Source: Micromonospora orduensis (GTDB lineage Bacteria > Actinomycetota > Actinomycetes > Mycobacteriales > Micromonosporaceae). From it: a DNA stretch of 38,929 nucleotides. Below, piece by piece: positions 24,359 to 30,206 of this stretch (position 1 is its first letter; every line of letters starts with the position of its first letter). The stretch is taken from the NCBI RefSeq assembly GCF_006228125.1, contig NZ_VDFY01000108.1, positions 1 to 38,929 of the forward strand, written 5' to 3'. The notes under the pieces are model-generated. The model worked only from the letters and a program-made list of their open reading frames with translations, had not been told where the DNA came from and did no database searches. Position numbers and translations under genes: made by a program.

Positions 24359-25171
24359 TCAGCGGTCCTGGCCGTGCTCCGGCCGCCGCCTGTCGTGCTC
24401 GTTGTCGTGGTCGAACGCCTCGCGGACCGCGTCCACCGCGCCGGCGGCGCTGGCCGCCGCGACCACGGCGACCGCCTCACCGCGCTTACGGGCCCGCCGG
24501 TCACGCAGGAACTCGAAGAAGATCGGCAGCACCGAGATCACGATGATCAGGGCCACCACCGGCAGGATGTAGTGGTCGATCTTGTCGCCGATCGCCTGGT
24601 AGATCCGGTCGGCCAGCAGGTAGCCGATCAGCAGGATGCCGTCCACCCAGAGCACCGCGCCGACGATGTTCCAGATCAGGAACTGCCGGGCCGGCATGCC
24701 CAGCGCACCGGCGACCGGGTTGAGGAAGGTGCGGACGATCGGGATGAAGCGCGCCAGCACCACGGCCTTCGCCGGGCCGAACTTCTGGAAGTAGTACTCG
24801 GCCTTCTCCACGTACTCCTTCTTGAAGAGCCGCGAGTTCGGCCGCTCGAACATCGGCCGCCCGTACCGCGATCCGAGCCAGTGCCCCAGCTGGGCACCGA
24901 CGATCGCGCAGATCGGCCCACCGATCAGCAGGCCGACCAGGGAGAGCCGGGTGCCGTCGCCGAAGATGGCGTCCGCCACCGGCGAGGCCGCCACGCCGGC
25001 GAGGAACAGCAGCGAGTCCCCCGGAAAGAAGAAGCCCACAAGCAGGCCGGTCTCGGCGAAGAGGATCACCCAGACGCCGATCAGCCCGAAGGTCTGCAAC
25101 AGCTCCTTGGGGTCGAGCGGGTTCAGGGCGACGCTCTCCGTGAGAGCGCGGGTCTTCTCAGCTGTGTCCAC
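24359..25171 (-). CDS. DedA-family membrane protein
   Basis: The 270-aa protein has the DedA/SNARE-associated core (PF09335 type): the ETGLLVGFFFPGDSLLFLAG stretch in the first membrane region (about residues 40-59), a GRPMFERPNSRLFKKEY loop, and the FIPIVRTFLNPVAG amphipathic stretch (about 142-155) with its conserved Arg and Pro. It has five to six hydrophobic segments and a charged tail. DedA proteins support membrane homeostasis; several are undecaprenyl-phosphate or phospholipid transporters. GTG 25171 is preferred: a TACCCT -10-like box (25185-25180) lies 8 nt before it, as in leaderless genes. Confidence 0.88.
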   Translation of the reverse strand: MDTAEKTRALTESVALNPLDPKELLQTFGLIGVWVILFAETGLLVGFFFPGDSLLFLAGVAASPVADAIFGDGTRLSLVGLLIGGPICAIVGAQLGHWLGSRYGRPMFERPNSRLFKKEYVEKAEYYFQKFGPAKAVVLARFIPIVRTFLNPVAGALGMPARQFLIWNIVGAVLWVDGILLIGYLLADRIYQAIGDKIDHYILPVVALIIVISVLPIFFEFLRDRRARKRGEAVAVVAAASAAGAVDAVREAFDHDNEHDRRRPEHGQDR

Positions 25172-25250
25172 GGCCACAAAGGGTACCGAAGGCGCAGCCT
25201 CGGGCCGCGCCGGACCGGGCCTTCCCACCCACCCGCGCCGCCACGAACGA

Positions 25251-25287
25251 CGGTGCCCCGCCGACCAGCGTGGTCGGCGGGGCACCG
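25251..25287. terminator. Terminator of the first LPITG surface-protein gene
   Basis: A perfect 17-bp stem (25251-25267 with 25271-25287) with a 3-nt loop lies 16 bp past the stop of the leftward gene at 25303. Confidence 0.8.
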
Positions 25288-25302: not shown

Positions 25303-26856
25303 TCAGGCGACGAAGCGGGTCCGGCGGCGCTTGGCCACCAGGAAGCCGCCGACGCCCGCGGCGAGCAGCAGAGCGCCGATGCCGGCGATCAGGCCGGTCG
25401 ACTGGCCGGTGATCGGCAGCGCGCCACCGTCACCACCGCCCTGACCGCCGGCGGCGTTCACCAGGATCTTGGCGGTGTCGTTGGCCGGCTTCAGGTCCTC
25501 GTAGAAGCCGCCCTCGCACTCGCACGGCACGTTGACCTTGACCGTGCCGGTGGCGTTGGCGATGACCTTGTCGATCCGGAACGTGAACTCGCCGGTCAGC
25601 TCCTCGCCGGCCGGGGCGAACGGACCCGGGTAGCAGCGGTAGGCGGCGGCACCCGGGGTGCCCGCCTCGTCCCACTCGGCGTCGTTGCCGGTCCGCGGTG
25701 CGCACTCGAACGGCACCTCCACGGCGGTGGTGCCCTTCGGGACCGTCACGTCGACGAAGGTCACGTCGGAGCCACTGCGGAGGTGGTCCAGCGTCGCCGG
25801 GCCGTTGTTACGGAAGCCCAGCGGGACGGTCAGCACGGCGCCCTTCTTGCCGGTGAGCGTGGCGCCGATGGCCTCCAGGTCAGCACCGTTCTTGCCGGTG
25901 ACGTCGACCGTCAGTCCACTGAAGTTGTTGTTGGGGTCGGTGTCGGTCTGCACGGCGCGCCTCTGCTTGGAGGGCACCGCCTCCAGGGACAGCGTCCTCC
26001 CGGTGCCGCGCCGAGCCTTCTCGGCGCCGGCCTCCTCGCGGACGCCGAGAAGGTCCTCGAAATCGGCCGGAGTCATGAACCAGGCGTTGCTGTACTCGCG
26101 CCCCGGCGCGTACGTGTCGGTCGCCAACTCGTAGTTGAGGGCAGCCGTAACGCCCTGGCCAGCTGGGATCTTCTCGTCAAACTCGCAGGCGAGCAGGAAG
26201 TCCTCGACATAGAGGCAGTTGTCGAACCGCTCCTTGGTCCGGATGCCGTAGTCACTGTCGAACATGACCACGACGCCGTCGACCTCGGTCGTGCCGGCGT
26301 TGAGCACCGTCAACGGGGCCTGGAACTTGCCGCCGGGTGCCGCCGTCACCGTGGTGTCCGGCCCGCCTGCGAGGTCCACGCCCTCACCGATCCGGATGCG
26401 GGAGGTGTAGTCCGCGATCTGCTTGTTGGCGGCCTTGATGCTGATCTTCAGCGCACCGGTGTCGCCGTTGGCCGCCTTGTCGGTCGGCGCGATGACAACC
26501 GAGCCCAGGAAGCCGCCGTACAACTCGTCGACGGCGATCGGGAACGACTCACGGCAGAGCAGCACTCCCTCACCATCGGCCGCGCACTCATCGGCGCGCT
26601 CGCCGGCCAGGGCGATCTTGCCAGCCAGGCTGCCGTAGTCGTAGCGGACCGAAACCTCGTTGAGGACGGTGGACTCACTGCTGTAGAGCGACGGCGACCG
26701 AACGACGCCTGGCGAATCCGCGGCGACGGTGACGTCCTCGAAGTACATGTCGAACTCGGCTGCTGGAGCGGCGAGGGCCGGGCTGGCGGAGGCGGCGACG
26801 AACGCGCCTGCTACGCCCAGGCCGGCGAGCCAGCGCCGGGTGGAGTGGGTGAGCAT
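25303..26856 (-). CDS. LPXTG-type cell-wall surface protein (paralog A)
   Basis: The 517-aa protein has a signal peptide at 1-30 (RR, hydrophobic core, ALA-A cleavage) and a large extracellular region that looks beta-rich. Eight cysteines fall in close pairs (C-x10-C near 90-100, C-x9-C in the NCLYVEDFLLACEF stretch, a wider C...C pair, and PCEC). The end is LPITG at 480-484, a hydrophobic segment and KRRRTR, the standard sortase signal. The NxGxxTLD and GEGVDLAGGP stretches recur in its relative at 28653. It faces away from the ECF sigma gene at 27037. The function is unknown; a covalently anchored wall protein is the strong reading. GGAGGAA precedes the ATG. Confidence 0.88.
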   Translation of the reverse strand: MLTHSTRRWLAGLGVAGAFVAASASPALAAPAAEFDMYFEDVTVAADSPGVVRSPSLYSSESTVLNEVSVRYDYGSLAGKIALAGERADECAADGEGVLLCRESFPIAVDELYGGFLGSVVIAPTDKAANGDTGALKISIKAANKQIADYTSRIRIGEGVDLAGGPDTTVTAAPGGKFQAPLTVLNAGTTEVDGVVVMFDSDYGIRTKERFDNCLYVEDFLLACEFDEKIPAGQGVTAALNYELATDTYAPGREYSNAWFMTPADFEDLLGVREEAGAEKARRGTGRTLSLEAVPSKQRRAVQTDTDPNNNFSGLTVDVTGKNGADLEAIGATLTGKKGAVLTVPLGFRNNGPATLDHLRSGSDVTFVDVTVPKGTTAVEVPFECAPRTGNDAEWDEAGTPGAAAYRCYPGPFAPAGEELTGEFTFRIDKVIANATGTVKVNVPCECEGGFYEDLKPANDTAKILVNAAGGQGGGDGGALPITGQSTGLIAGIGALLLAAGVGGFLVAKRRRTRFVA

Positions 26857-27036
26857 GTGGGGATTCCTCCAAGTGGGGGATTCAGGTGCAGCCTGCGGAT
26901 CTTAAGGAATCGCTAAGGTTCAGTGCCGCCCCTGATCACCGCCCGCTCGGCAAGACGAACCGAAAGGTTGATCACGGTCACCGCAACGTTCAGGCCGCCC
27001 GGTTCCGTCATCTGAGGCAGGAGCCCGGGAGGTGCA

Positions 27037-27522
27037 GTGACGTACGAGGAGTTCGCGGACACGCGACTGGCACCGCTGCTGCGGTACGCGGTGATGCTCA
27101 CCGGCGATCCGCATCAGGCGCAGGATCTGGTGCAGGAGACGATGGTCCGGGTCCAGCTGAACTGGCGGCGGGTCGCGCGGGCGGACTCACCCGAGCGGTA
27201 CGTGCGCCGGATGCTCACCAACCAGTACGTCGACTGGAAGCGCGGCTCGTGGATGCGCCGGGTGCTGCTGCGCGGGGAACCCGACGAGTCCGTGCCGGCG
27301 TACGCCGACCACGCCCAGTCGGCCGTGGACCGGGACCAGATCTGGTCCTGGCTGTCCCGGCTGCCGCGCCGCCAACGCGCGACCCTCGTGCTGCGGTACT
27401 ACGAGGACCTGCCCGACGCCGAGATCGCCGAAATCCTCGGCTGTGCCGTCGGGACCGTACGTTCGTCCATCTCCCGGGCCCTGGCCACGCTCCGGGCCGA
27501 GTACGTGGAGGTTCGCTCATGA
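27037..27522 (+). CDS. ECF RNA polymerase sigma factor, SigE-like family
   Basis: The 161-aa protein has sigma region 2 at about 5-70 (LLRYAVMLTGDPHQAQDLVQ, then VQLNWRRV) and region 4 at about 105-155 (LPRRQRATLVLRYYEDLPDA, then TVRSSISRALATLR). There is no extra domain. GTG 27037 follows GGGAGGTG. Its stop overlaps the next ATG (ATGA), so the sigma factor and the LCP protein are coupled. ECF factors normally sit with an anti-sigma partner; here the partner position is taken by the LCP protein. It probably serves envelope genes, plausibly the two flanking LPITG proteins. Confidence 0.92.
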   Translation: MTYEEFADTRLAPLLRYAVMLTGDPHQAQDLVQETMVRVQLNWRRVARADSPERYVRRMLTNQYVDWKRGSWMRRVLLRGEPDESVPAYADHAQSAVDRDQIWSWLSRLPRRQRATLVLRYYEDLPDAEIAEILGCAVGTVRSSISRALATLRAEYVEVRS

Positions 27523-28583
27523 TCGAGGATGACCTGCGTGCCGCCTTCGCTCGGCACGAGCCGCTGACCCCGCCGACCGGTCCACTGCGGGCCGCGATCG
27601 ACCGCCTGGTGGCCCGTCGGCGTCAGCGTCGGCGGCGGTGGCAGACCGGTGGTGCGGCGTTGGCGCTGCTCGGCGTCCTGGGGATCGGGGTGCCCCTGTT
27701 GACTCCGGAGCGCGCCGGGCCGCCGCCGACCGCCGATCTACTCGGCGGGTCCAGCCGGCCAGCGCCGACGGGCGCACTGAACATCCTGCTGCTCGGCCTC
27801 GACGGCGAGGGGCCGGAGGCGTCACGGTCGGACGCGCTGCTGCTGGTGCACATCCCGGCCGACCGCGGTCGCCCGTACCTGGTGTCGTTGCCGCGTGACC
27901 TGGGGGTGCCGATCCCGGGCCACGGGACGGACAAGTTGAACGCCGCGTTTCCGTTCGGTGCCGGGTTCAGCCGGCCGCAGGCTGCTAAGGGTTACGAGCT
28001 GACCCGCCGTACGGTGACAGAGTTGACCGGCGTACGGGTGGACGCCGGAGTGGTGCTGACGTACTCCACCGTACGGACGCTTACCGACACCATGGGTGGA
28101 GTGCCGGTGTGTCTGCCCGAGCAGGTGCGCTCGGTGCACACGAAGCGCGTCTTCCCGAGCGGCTGTCAACGTCTCGGCGGGGCCGCGGCGGTCGACCTGC
28201 TCCGCCAGCGCTACGGTCTGCCGAACGGCGGCCAGGACCGGGACCGGAACGCCCGGCTCTTCGCCGCAGGCCTTCTCCGTCAGGCCGCCGACCAGGGCGT
28301 GCTCACCGATCCGGTACGCCTCGCCAGGCTGCTGGCCGCCGTCGGCCCGGACCTCGTGGTGTCACCCGACCGGGCCGCCGCGCTGGACCTGCTGCGGCTC
28401 GTCCCCGCGCTGCGGTCGGTCGAGCCGGTCGGGCTCGGCCTGCCGGTCGTCGAGTCGGAAGGACCTGCCTGGTACCTGCGCCTCGACCCGCAGCGCGCTC
28501 CCGAGTTCCTGACCGCGCTGCGGGAGGACCGGCTCGACGACTGGACGGCCCGTCACCCGAAGCGGGTGGACGCCGTCCGTTGA
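27519..28583 (+). CDS. LytR-CpsA-Psr (LCP) family membrane protein
   Basis: The 354-aa protein starts with an N-terminal cytoplasmic part of about 40 residues ending in a run of arginines, then one membrane helix (44-62) and an extracytoplasmic LCP domain (about 85-260). LCP enzymes attach glycopolymers from lipid carriers to peptidoglycan. Kept motifs are RSDA (103-106), SLPRD (123-127), a KLNAAFPFG-like stretch, the GGVPV stretch and the LLRQR motif (Arg229). Departures: RSDT is changed to RSDA, and DRDRNARLF replaces the usual R-x-x-RQ pattern. The cytoplasmic stub resembles the N-terminus of proteins paired with SigE-like ECF factors, hinting at a sensor/anti-sigma role. It shares ATGA with the sigma gene. 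Confidence 0.88.
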   Translation: MIEDDLRAAFARHEPLTPPTGPLRAAIDRLVARRRQRRRRWQTGGAALALLGVLGIGVPLLTPERAGPPPTADLLGGSSRPAPTGALNILLLGLDGEGPEASRSDALLLVHIPADRGRPYLVSLPRDLGVPIPGHGTDKLNAAFPFGAGFSRPQAAKGYELTRRTVTELTGVRVDAGVVLTYSTVRTLTDTMGGVPVCLPEQVRSVHTKRVFPSGCQRLGGAAAVDLLRQRYGLPNGGQDRDRNARLFAAGLLRQAADQGVLTDPVRLARLLAAVGPDLVVSPDRAAALDLLRLVPALRSVEPVGLGLPVVESEGPAWYLRLDPQRAPEFLTALREDRLDDWTARHPKRVDAVR

Positions 28584-28652
28584 ACGGGTGCGCGGCACGC
28601 GACGCGCACGCCGGCCGGATCTGGACGGCGGGGCGCCAGTCGGACGGCCGGG

Positions 28653-30206
28653 TCAGGCGACGAAGCGGGTCGTTCGGCGCCGGGCGAGCAGGTAGCCGCC
28701 CGTGCCGACGATGAACAGCAGGCCACCGATGCCGGCGAGCAGGCCGGTCGGGGAGCCGGTGATGGGCAGCGCGCCACCGCCGTCGCCACCGCCGCCACCA
28801 CCGCCCGGTCGTGCGTTGACCACGATCGTGGCCTTGTCGTTGGCCGGTTTGATGTCGTCCTCGAAGCTGCCGCCGCCGGGGCATTCGCACGGCGCGTTGA
28901 CCCGCACCGCGCCCCGGGCGTTGGGGATGACCTTGTCGATGCGTAGCCGGAAGTCCATGGTGTAGCTCCTGCCGGCCACCAGGAGCATCTCCGAGGCGCA
29001 CAGGTACGTGCGGGTGCGCTGCCGCAACTGGCAGCCATTGGGGATTTCGACGGCGGTGGTGCCCGGCGGCAGTTCGACGTCCGTGTGGGTGGCAGCCTCG
29101 TAGTCGGCGTTCACCTTGTCGAGCGTCGCCGGGCCGTTGTTCCGGAAGCCGACGGTCGCCGTGACGACGGCGCCGGCGCTCCCCTTGAGCGCGTCGCCGA
29201 TGGCTGCGAGGTCGGTGCCGTTCGTGCCGGTGACCTTGACGTTCCACCCGGTGTAGTCGTAGCCGGGGCCGACGTCGGTCTGGTCGGCCTGCCGCATCCT
29301 GCTGGGCGCCTCGGCCAGGGTCAGCTTGGGGCCGCTCCCGCGGGTGGCAGCCTGGCCGCCGACGGAGTCCCGCACCCGGGTCAGGTCCTCGAAGTCGGCA
29401 GTCGTCATGAACTGGGCGTAGCCGCCCTGGTTGCTGGGGGCGTACGTGTCTCTGGCCAGCTGGACGTTCAGCGTGGTGGAGAGCCCTTCGCCCACCGGGA
29501 TCTCCTCCTCGAACTGGCAGGAGAGCAGGTGGTCTTCGGAGTAGAGGCAGTTGCTGAACCGGTCCGTGGCCCGGATCGAGTAGCGCAGGTCGAAGACCGC
29601 GACGAAACCCCTTACGGTCGTGTCGCCGACGTTCGCCACGGCCAGCGGCAGCGTGACCTTTGCACCCGGCTCGGCGGAGTGGTCGGTGAACGGACCGCCG
29701 GCCAGGTCGACCCCCTCGCCGATGCGGACCTGCGAGGTGTAGCTGCCCCGCTGCCCGCCGGCCGCCTCGAAGCTGACCGCGATGTCGCCGGAGTCGCCGA
29801 GCTGCGCATCGTCGGTGGCGGCGATGCGCACCCGCTCGGCCACGCCGCGGTAGATCCCGCTGCCGAGAGGCGGCAGCTCGCTGATGTCGACGCCGTAGGG
29901 ATCCTCGCAGACCAGGACGCCCGCCTCCGGTGCTGTGCAGTCCTGACCGTCGGCCGGGGCGACAGTGATCCTGCCGGCCAGGGACCGGTAGTCGTACCGC
30001 AGGGAGACGTCGGTGAGGACCATCGGCCCGTCCGCGAACAGGAACAGCTGGCGGGTGGTTGGCGCCGCGTCGACGGCCAGCGTGGAGTCCTGGAAGTAGG
30101 GCTCGACGGTGGGCGCGGCAGCGGCCACGGCGGGGGTGACGGAGGCGGCGACCAACGCGCCCGCGGCGCCGAGGCCTGCCAGCCAGCGGATGGAGTGCTT
30201 GAGCAT
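28653..30206 (-). CDS. LPXTG-type cell-wall surface protein (paralog B)
   Basis: The 517-aa protein is the same length as the 25303 protein, with LPITG at the same residues 480-484, then a membrane helix and RRRTTR. It has a signal peptide at about 1-28. Shared stretches include SVRYDY versus SLRYDY, IRIGEGVDLAGGP versus VRIGEGVDLAGGP, NCLY-x-ED-x-LL-x-C, GFRNNGPATLD, FRIDKVI versus LRIDKVI and PCEC, showing clear paralogy at moderate identity. The eight-cysteine layout is kept, suggesting conserved disulfides. It converges with the LCP gene, so sigma-LCP is flanked by both paralogs. GGAGGA precedes the ATG. The function is unknown. Confidence 0.88.
   Translation of the reverse strand: MLKHSIRWLAGLGAAGALVAASVTPAVAAAAPTVEPYFQDSTLAVDAAPTTRQLFLFADGPMVLTDVSLRYDYRSLAGRITVAPADGQDCTAPEAGVLVCEDPYGVDISELPPLGSGIYRGVAERVRIAATDDAQLGDSGDIAVSFEAAGGQRGSYTSQVRIGEGVDLAGGPFTDHSAEPGAKVTLPLAVANVGDTTVRGFVAVFDLRYSIRATDRFSNCLYSEDHLLSCQFEEEIPVGEGLSTTLNVQLARDTYAPSNQGGYAQFMTTADFEDLTRVRDSVGGQAATRGSGPKLTLAEAPSRMRQADQTDVGPGYDYTGWNVKVTGTNGTDLAAIGDALKGSAGAVVTATVGFRNNGPATLDKVNADYEAATHTDVELPPGTTAVEIPNGCQLRQRTRTYLCASEMLLVAGRSYTMDFRLRIDKVIPNARGAVRVNAPCECPGGGSFEDDIKPANDKATIVVNARPGGGGGGGDGGGALPITGSPTGLLAGIGGLLFIVGTGGYLLARRRTTRFVA

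Follow-up and report, generated by a model that had tools for sequence, protein, structure and literature searches.

A SigE-family sigma factor gene coupled to an LCP gene in Micromonospora: a predicted anti-sigma stub with LPITG surface proteins as neighbours

The sigma-LCP pair, its promoter and the LCP stub

The stretch analysed here (the window) is 38,929 nucleotides (nt) of Micromonospora orduensis DNA, one contig (NZ_VDFY01000108.1) of a 6.9-Mb draft genome (GCF_006228125.1). Between positions 25,303 and 30,206 it carries a gene for an extracytoplasmic function (ECF) sigma factor directly followed by a gene for a membrane protein of the LCP family, and this sigma-LCP pair lies between two genes for surface proteins, A and B, that end in an LPITG anchor. 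The locus is bounded by pyrE and dedA on one side and by a holin-like gene, fba and a LOG-like gene on the other (the names pyrE, holin-like, fba and LOG-like were assigned by reading the sequences). The features of the pair are as follows.

26983..27009, + strand: predicted ECF promoter of the sigma-LCP operon, GCAACGTTC-N13-CCGTC, 27 nt ahead of the start codon
27037..27522, + strand: ECF sigma factor, SigE family, 161 amino acids (aa), GTG start (TIGR02983 profile)
27519..28583, + strand: LCP-family transmembrane protein, 354 aa, its start overlapping the sigma stop (ATGA) (PF03816, TIGR00350)
27519..27641, + strand: N-terminal cytoplasmic stub of the LCP protein, residues 1-41, predicted sigma-binding part (from conservation in 37 LCPs)

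The sigma gene product matched TIGR02983 with 162 bits (cut-off 141.55) and both PF04542 and PF08281 (sigma regions 2 and 4) above their cut-offs, and the LCP gene product matched PF03816 with 88.4 bits (cut-off 24.6) and TIGR00350 with 72.4 bits (cut-off 62.3). The TGA stop codon of the former and the ATG start codon of the latter share the overlap ATGA, in agreement with an earlier note on this DNA, which had described the two genes as translationally coupled.

The conservation of the locus was followed with surface protein A and the LCP as queries in 60 relatives and in the genome of the window itself. The genus set consisted of 37 genomes, namely this genome and 36 relatives for which the locus was retrieved (in one, G023, it spans two contigs). 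An LCP ortholog (at least 290 bits, with the next match at 167 bits) was found in 20 of the 37, and the match covered the stub in all except G023, where the N-terminus is on the other contig. The LCPs nearest to that of the window come from Micromonospora sp. MH99 (82%) and M. lupini (81%). In every one of these 20 genomes the sigma gene lies directly upstream of the LCP ortholog at this locus, and the 16 genus sigma orthologs that were aligned are 87-96% identical. One of the sigma genes, in G021 (L047 7327-7802), consists of two overlapping pieces in different frames, the result of a sequencing error or of early decay. A search of 24 genomes outside the family with the LCP gave no match above 136 bits, and a search of plasmid DNA gave matches of 47-112 bases only.

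A second, family-wide sample of 250 genomes contained LCP orthologs of more than 430 bits in 38 of 63 genus genomes (counted from the list), and in other genera LCPs that aligned from residue 1-3 onward were present in at least 45 of 187 genomes. Twenty loci from 11 other genera were picked for carrying an LCP with the stub, and so they test the pairing and not its frequency; a sigma ortholog (66-84% identical) was immediately upstream of the LCP in all 20, and fba was within the stretch in all of them. Wherever it was read, the sigma-LCP coupling is old and strict, and the view of the earlier note that the LCP occupies the position of an anti-sigma factor is supported. Two loci of one other genus (L235 5604-6530 and L238 9227-9997) have an extra LCP gene just upstream of the sigma gene, giving the order LCP-sigma-LCP.

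Ahead of all 20 sigma genes of the genus, 25-30 nt before the start, is the motif GCAAYGTTY-N13-CCGTC, which is exact in 19 cases and in the 20th differs by one base (GCAG). With a spacer of 13-15 bases the exact motif occurs once in the 6.9-Mb genome of the window; across 61 genomes there were 31 exact sites, 19 of them the sigma genes' own promoters and one a relic in G024. A weight matrix was built from the genus promoters and scored against shuffled surface-gene upstream regions as a background (n=1000; 99th percentile 6.0, maximum 20.3). Of the 20 sigma upstream regions from other genera, 15 scored at least 12.8 with the motif at the same place. A wide regulon carrying the sigma motif was considered and rejected, as one-mismatch sites (the sigma gene's own promoter being left out) were equally common with and without the pair, 93 in 20 genomes and 80 in 17, or 4.7 each.

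A second LCP gene, located between atpD and atpC in the ATP synthase operon, was seen in all four loci read (L145 4341-5537, L146, L147 and L148). Some 27-31 nt ahead of its start codon is the site GCAACCTTT-N13-CCGTC (place checked in these 4 loci). Judged by its letters, a site of this type was present in at least 12 genomes among the matches listed, 8 with the pair and 4 without, and it is therefore not specific to the pair.

The part of the LCP protein that is most strongly conserved is its N-terminus. Across 37 LCP orthologs from 12 genera the mean share of the majority residue was highest (0.74) for residues 1-24 of the stub, followed by the arginine cluster (0.68), the catalytic domain (0.65), the transmembrane segment (0.55), the C-terminus (0.48) and the linker (0.32). 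A generic LCP of the same bacteria (20 sequences), used as a control, gave the reverse pattern, with 0.46-0.51 before the transmembrane segment and 0.77 in the domain, and in most of the genus's generic LCP paralogs the match begins only at about residue 30-50. The conserved stub residues are E3, L6, R7, F10, R12, E14, P18, P22, R24, I27, D28 and R34-38. The stub is thus conserved like a working part of the protein. AlphaFold2 gave helices at residues 2-12 and 22-53 with low confidence, and the topology was derived from the arginine cluster ahead of a single hydrophobic stretch together with the low-confidence helix 22-53. Coupled to the sigma gene and conserved with it, the LCP would in these respects be of the anti-sigma type, a predicted single-pass protein with a cytoplasmic N-terminus. 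Three further SigE-family sigma genes (L117, L122 and L123), found among 30 SigE-family loci of this genome (out of 49 matches) that were read by eye, are likewise coupled to a gene whose product has a short stub, an arginine cluster and a transmembrane segment, followed by a different ectodomain.

Residues D105, R126, D127, R229, R231, R241 and D242, which we take to be the catalytic residues of the LCP family, are all present in the LCP of the window and invariant in 17 genus orthologs; among the 37 orthologs D105, D127, R231 and R241 are invariant and D242 is kept in 36. The active-site motifs align with those of Cps2A (2xxp), and the gene is predicted to encode a wall-polymer ligase, that is, an LCP glycopolymer transferase.

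The LPITG surface genes and their relation to the pair

The surface genes flanking the pair, and two conserved boxes upstream of gene A, are as follows.

25303..26856, - strand: surface protein A, 517 aa, LPITG anchor (open reading frame (ORF), TIGR01167)
28653..30206, - strand: surface protein B, 517 aa, LPITG anchor, paralog of A (ORF, pairwise alignment)
26958..26974, - strand: conserved box 1 upstream of protein A, TGATCAACCTTTCGGTT (CCKTTYGG, chosen by eye)
26898..26919, - strand: conserved box 2 upstream of protein A, CCTTAGCGATTCCTTAAGATCC, an imperfect palindrome overlapping a -10-like TTAAGAT (upstream alignment, chosen by eye)

As the earlier note had stated, A and B are paralogs of 517 residues each that flank the pair, with LPITG beginning at residue 480 in both; in a pairwise alignment 266 of 530 positions (50%) were identical and 26 were gaps. 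The eight-cysteine layout that the same note had called identical is the same in number and order, and the residue positions are shifted by 1 to 7. The equal length of the two proteins was discounted as meaningful, since the equivalent genes in two other species have unequal spans (519/522 codons in G002 and 524/523 in G030); it is a coincidence, because the insertions and deletions balance. Both proteins have an N-terminal hydrophobic segment and a C-terminal tail of LPITG, transmembrane segment and arginines, and so display the LPXTG motif, hydrophobic segment and basic tail of a sorting signal. In the NCBIfam profile search protein A matched TIGR01167 (18.7 against a cut-off of 15.9) and no match to this profile was listed for protein B. 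An AlphaFold2 model of protein A (predicted local distance difference test, pLDDT, 81) consisted mostly of beta strands arranged in beta-sandwich domains, and a fold search of the PDB returned as best matches Ig-like stalk regions with low TM-scores (integrins, PrgB). Elsewhere the genome encodes two further surface paralogs, which are more distant (35% and 30% identity), the latter without the LPITG end.

No sortase was present among the ORFs of the window, as the earlier note had also found, and a Pfam search of the genome identified seven sortases, all of them on contigs other than that of the window. A and B are likely to be anchored by one of these seven. They resemble the sortase substrates CwpA-G and SspA of Actinoplanes missouriensis, described in the available text of PMC13251363, which likewise are C-terminal sorting-signal proteins encoded at loci apart from the sortase genes. 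The CwpA-F proteins are described there with disordered regions, whereas A is modelled as beta-sandwich domains.

A full-length surface gene was present at the locus in 16 of the 20 genus genomes with the pair and in 13 of the 17 without it (Fisher p=1). The pair-bearing genomes that lack one are G011, with a C-terminal remnant only, G020, G021 and G032; those with neither pair nor surface gene are G001, G007, G018 and G036. In G011 the remnant (L042 9268-9381) comprises the anchor region only and lies behind the LCP gene, so that here the surface gene decays while the sigma-LCP pair stays. The arrangement of the window, with the pair between two intact surface genes, is also that of G002 and G030; G034 has it too, but its A is truncated. 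Surface genes were found in 5 of the 20 other-genus loci, in 2 of them broken into pieces, and at the same locus in another genus (L243 4959-8645) there are three surface-gene copies or pieces in tandem.

Fitch parsimony, applied to a tree built from five linked housekeeping proteins, gave 10 changes of state for the pair and 8 for the surface gene. The outgroup consisted of five loci picked for having the pair, all of them are without a surface gene, and the root state was ambiguous for both characters, so that this count alone gives no direction. The pair is taken as ancestral because it occurs in the same order beside fba in other genera, and the direction, loss of the pair, is given by scars in two genomes. 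In G024 the surface genes are open and adjacent, and between them the sigma promoter and leader remain, with the end of B no more than about 20 bases further on; in G029 the promoter (with one base missing in the -35), the leader, the start codon and the first sigma codons remain. G006 and G025 retain part of the sigma promoter motif only. No other trace of a sigma or LCP gene was detected at the pair-less loci by tblastn (E up to 0.001).

The sigma-type motif was also sought upstream of 39 surface genes (34 at the locus and 5 off-locus paralogs, leaving out the truncated A of G034 and a split-match gene of G013). The best score was 6.5, for the B gene of the window, which its orthologs do not share, and the rest scored 0.8 or less. 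The surface-gene upstream regions have instead boxes of their own in common: CCKTTYGG lies about 110 nt ahead of the gene, and TTAAGMTCC, in this form or as a variant, about 50 nt ahead of it. The absence of the motif, the unlinked presence of the genes and the occurrence of the boxes also in genomes without the pair led us to reject the surface genes as sigma targets; they are not tied to the sigma factor by presence, promoter motif or loss, and are likely to be independent neighbours outside the control of this sigma factor.

These results divide the interpretation given in the earlier note, which is partly supported. The gene-order comparison that it had proposed shows the sigma and LCP genes to be co-conserved as a unit and the surface genes to be retained independently. 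Its self-contained module including the surface proteins is at odds with the 13 of 17 pair-less genomes that keep a surface gene and the 4 of 20 pair-bearing ones that lack an intact one, and with surface-gene upstream regions that do not carry the promoter of the sigma gene. Relatives having surface proteins without the pair, whose being the rule was one of the points that the note had named as telling against it, account for 13 of the 29 genus genomes with a surface gene at the locus, which is nearly half and not the rule.

A possible role for the LCP stub, and competing explanations

The pairing, the gene overlap, the conservation of the stub and the ECF-type promoter together are consistent with a sigma factor that regulates its own gene and is held by a partner in the membrane, the partner being an LCP protein. 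On this basis we think it probable that the sigma and LCP genes form a two-gene unit in which the LCP stub is a predicted anti-sigma domain, and that the LPITG proteins are neighbours likely to lie outside sigma control. In such a unit the cytoplasmic stub would hold the sigma factor at the membrane as an anti-sigma domain, the sigma factor may transcribe its own sigma-LCP operon, and the ectodomain, which keeps most active-site residues of the LCP family, would sense a lipid-linked glycopolymer or its ligation. A change in the occupancy of the ectodomain might then release the sigma factor, giving more sigma factor and more LCP, and the pair would thereby act as a homeostat for the capacity of wall-polymer ligation, beside a gene of a family that recycles the same lipid carrier. 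This fuller proposal, in which the ligase is its own anti-sigma factor, reading substrate or ligation on the outside while a stub of about 40 residues holds a sigma factor that, once freed, drives essentially its own operon, and in which the stub is a small sigma-binding module placed before varied ectodomains in these bacteria, is put forward tentatively, as a reading that we rate as somewhat less likely than not.

Several observations weigh against all or part of this. The pair is dispensable, as 17 of the 37 genus genomes are without it and its distribution requires 10 parsimony changes. No recognised anti-sigma domain was found in the LCP with Pfam or NCBIfam, the only hint being a sub-threshold match to CU044_5270 (19 against 100 bits), and the structural model of the stub is weak (pLDDT 44-55 over residues 1-30). 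Two of the active-site arginines are not universal, R126 being present in 35 and R229 in 34 of the 37 LCPs. In 5 of the 20 other-genus sigma upstream regions the motif is weak (4 of them, scoring 5.2-6.6) or absent (L238). Finally, box 2 or its listed variant was present in 18 of 19 surface upstream regions from genomes with the pair and in 9 of 15 from those without (p=0.028, kinship ignored), the figures for box 1 being 17 of 19 and 10 of 15 (p=0.20, kinship ignored); the boxes were picked by eye from the same sequences, so these counts describe and do not test, and the greater frequency of box 2 with the pair is the one hint of a link between the surface genes and the pair.

The LCP could instead be an output only, its gene driven by a sigma factor whose activity is set in some other way (e.g. 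by transcription), with the stub serving membrane placement or another partner. There is a precedent in sigma E of Streptomyces coelicolor, which according to the available text of PMC6767563 is controlled by CseBC, is without an anti-sigma factor and transcribes the LCP genes sco3044 and sco5358, and the second LCP gene between atpD and atpC also has a similar promoter-like site. We consider this explanation rather unlikely, though to be taken seriously, in view of the strict pairing, the ATGA overlap and a stub conserved above the enzyme domain. Moreover, the promoter of S. coelicolor sigE is in the same source no sigma E target, while the sigma gene here has a conserved ECF-type motif.

That the sigma factor controls the flanking surface proteins in a self-contained envelope module is suggested by the divergent orientation of a surface gene and the sigma gene in many species, by their adjacency also in other genera, and by the somewhat greater frequency of box 2 with the pair. 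The promoter motif is not common to the sigma and surface genes, however, their presence is not associated (16/20 against 13/17, Fisher p=1), the surface boxes occur also in genomes without the sigma-LCP pair, and the deletion scars leave both surface genes intact, all of which makes such a module very unlikely. Least probable of all, in our estimate, is that the neighbourhood has no meaning and that envelope and other genes simply gather in a variable region bounded by pyrE and fba. The contents of this region do come and go, and several relatives have Hen1 and Pnkp genes in it, but the sigma gene precedes the LCP ortholog in every locus read, across 12 genera, so that at least the sigma-LCP pair is not a random association; for the surface genes an association of this kind remains likely.

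Like S. coelicolor sigma E, whose group is given as ECF39 in the accessible part of PMC8999054, the sigma factor here is of the SigE family, tied to the cell wall and to LCP genes and with a similar -35/-10 style (AAC ... CGTC). It differs in having no adjoining cse genes, an ECF-type promoter motif and a coupled partner that is itself an LCP. The absence of CseA and CseBC genes beside the pair was read from gene order (surface genes, dedA, pyrE, holin-like gene, fba), with no Cse profile run. For A. missouriensis, the accessible text of PMC13251363 reports 11 SigE-family factors with no cse cluster beside them. In the sigW-ecfX-ecfY operon of Bacillus thuringiensis the LCP-family protein EcfY is encoded with an ECF sigma factor, and a negative effect on sigW was proposed in the parts of PMC2632651 and PMC4147579 consulted; that operon has a separate putative anti-sigma factor, EcfX, whereas here there are two genes, with the conserved stub on the LCP. 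The LCP resembles the glycopolymer transferases Cps2A and TagT in sequence family and active-site motifs, and differs from them in the conserved cytoplasmic stub and the coupling to a sigma gene. No description of the sigma-LCP pair was seen among the open-licence PMC papers that the literature searches listed, and a term search of the available text of a review of non-canonical ECF factors (PMC8999054) returned no mention of LytR or LCP.

What keeps the bacterial capacity for wall glycopolymer attachment in line with supply and damage is an open question. If the proposal is correct, and one enzyme serves also to regulate a sigma factor from the membrane, the question could be tested directly with two genes and one promoter, and the species in which the pair has been deleted provide natural knock-outs with which to compare. 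As the surface proteins show, genes can lie side by side in a conserved locus without forming a regulon, so that adjacency is no proof of one.

Genes adjoining the locus

One further gene adjoins surface gene A on the same strand and is treated as a neighbour of the locus, with no claim that it belongs to the proposed switch.

24359..25285, - strand: DedA/VTT-family membrane protein, undecaprenyl-phosphate flippase family (PF09335, 66.9 against 33.9 bits)

LCP enzymes release the undecaprenyl-phosphate lipid carrier, and a flippase neighbourhood is coherent because the carrier is the same; the adjacency is no evidence of regulation. On the pyrE side of the locus 29 of the 37 genus genomes have a DedA-type gene (in 6 of them only 42-47% identical to that of the window) and 7 (G001, G003, G005, G007, G025, G031 and G036) have a DUF368-type gene (PF04018, undecaprenyl phosphate translocase-like; for example L059 11370-12392). 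A flippase-family gene is thus beside the locus in 36 of 37 genomes, G023 being unreadable, and no genus genome has both types in the stretch, which looks like the exchange of one family for an unrelated one at a single site. Both families include undecaprenyl-phosphate flippases, as stated in the available portions of PMC12893004 and PMC10127716, the latter of which, in the same portion, asks whether flippase activity holds for all DedA proteins and describes three subfamilies. The pair was always accompanied by the DedA type (19 of 19 readable genomes), while genomes without it have 10 DedA and 7 DUF368 genes, all 7 DUF368 genomes being without the sigma-LCP pair (Fisher p=0.002); the association reflects few events, because no more than two changes of flippase type were placed on the tree.

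The possibility that the variable insert encodes a sortase was considered and discarded, as the large ORFs of five relatives proved to be Hen1-like in 5/5 and Pnkp-like in 3/5, with Pfam confirmation in 2. In several relatives these RNA-repair genes, Hen1 and Pnkp, are inserted in the locus with the flippase-type gene on one side and the surface or sigma gene on the other; both were found in L045 (2473-6452) and L059 (7334-11360), where Pfam confirmed both, and in L060, and Hen1 alone in L042 and L043.

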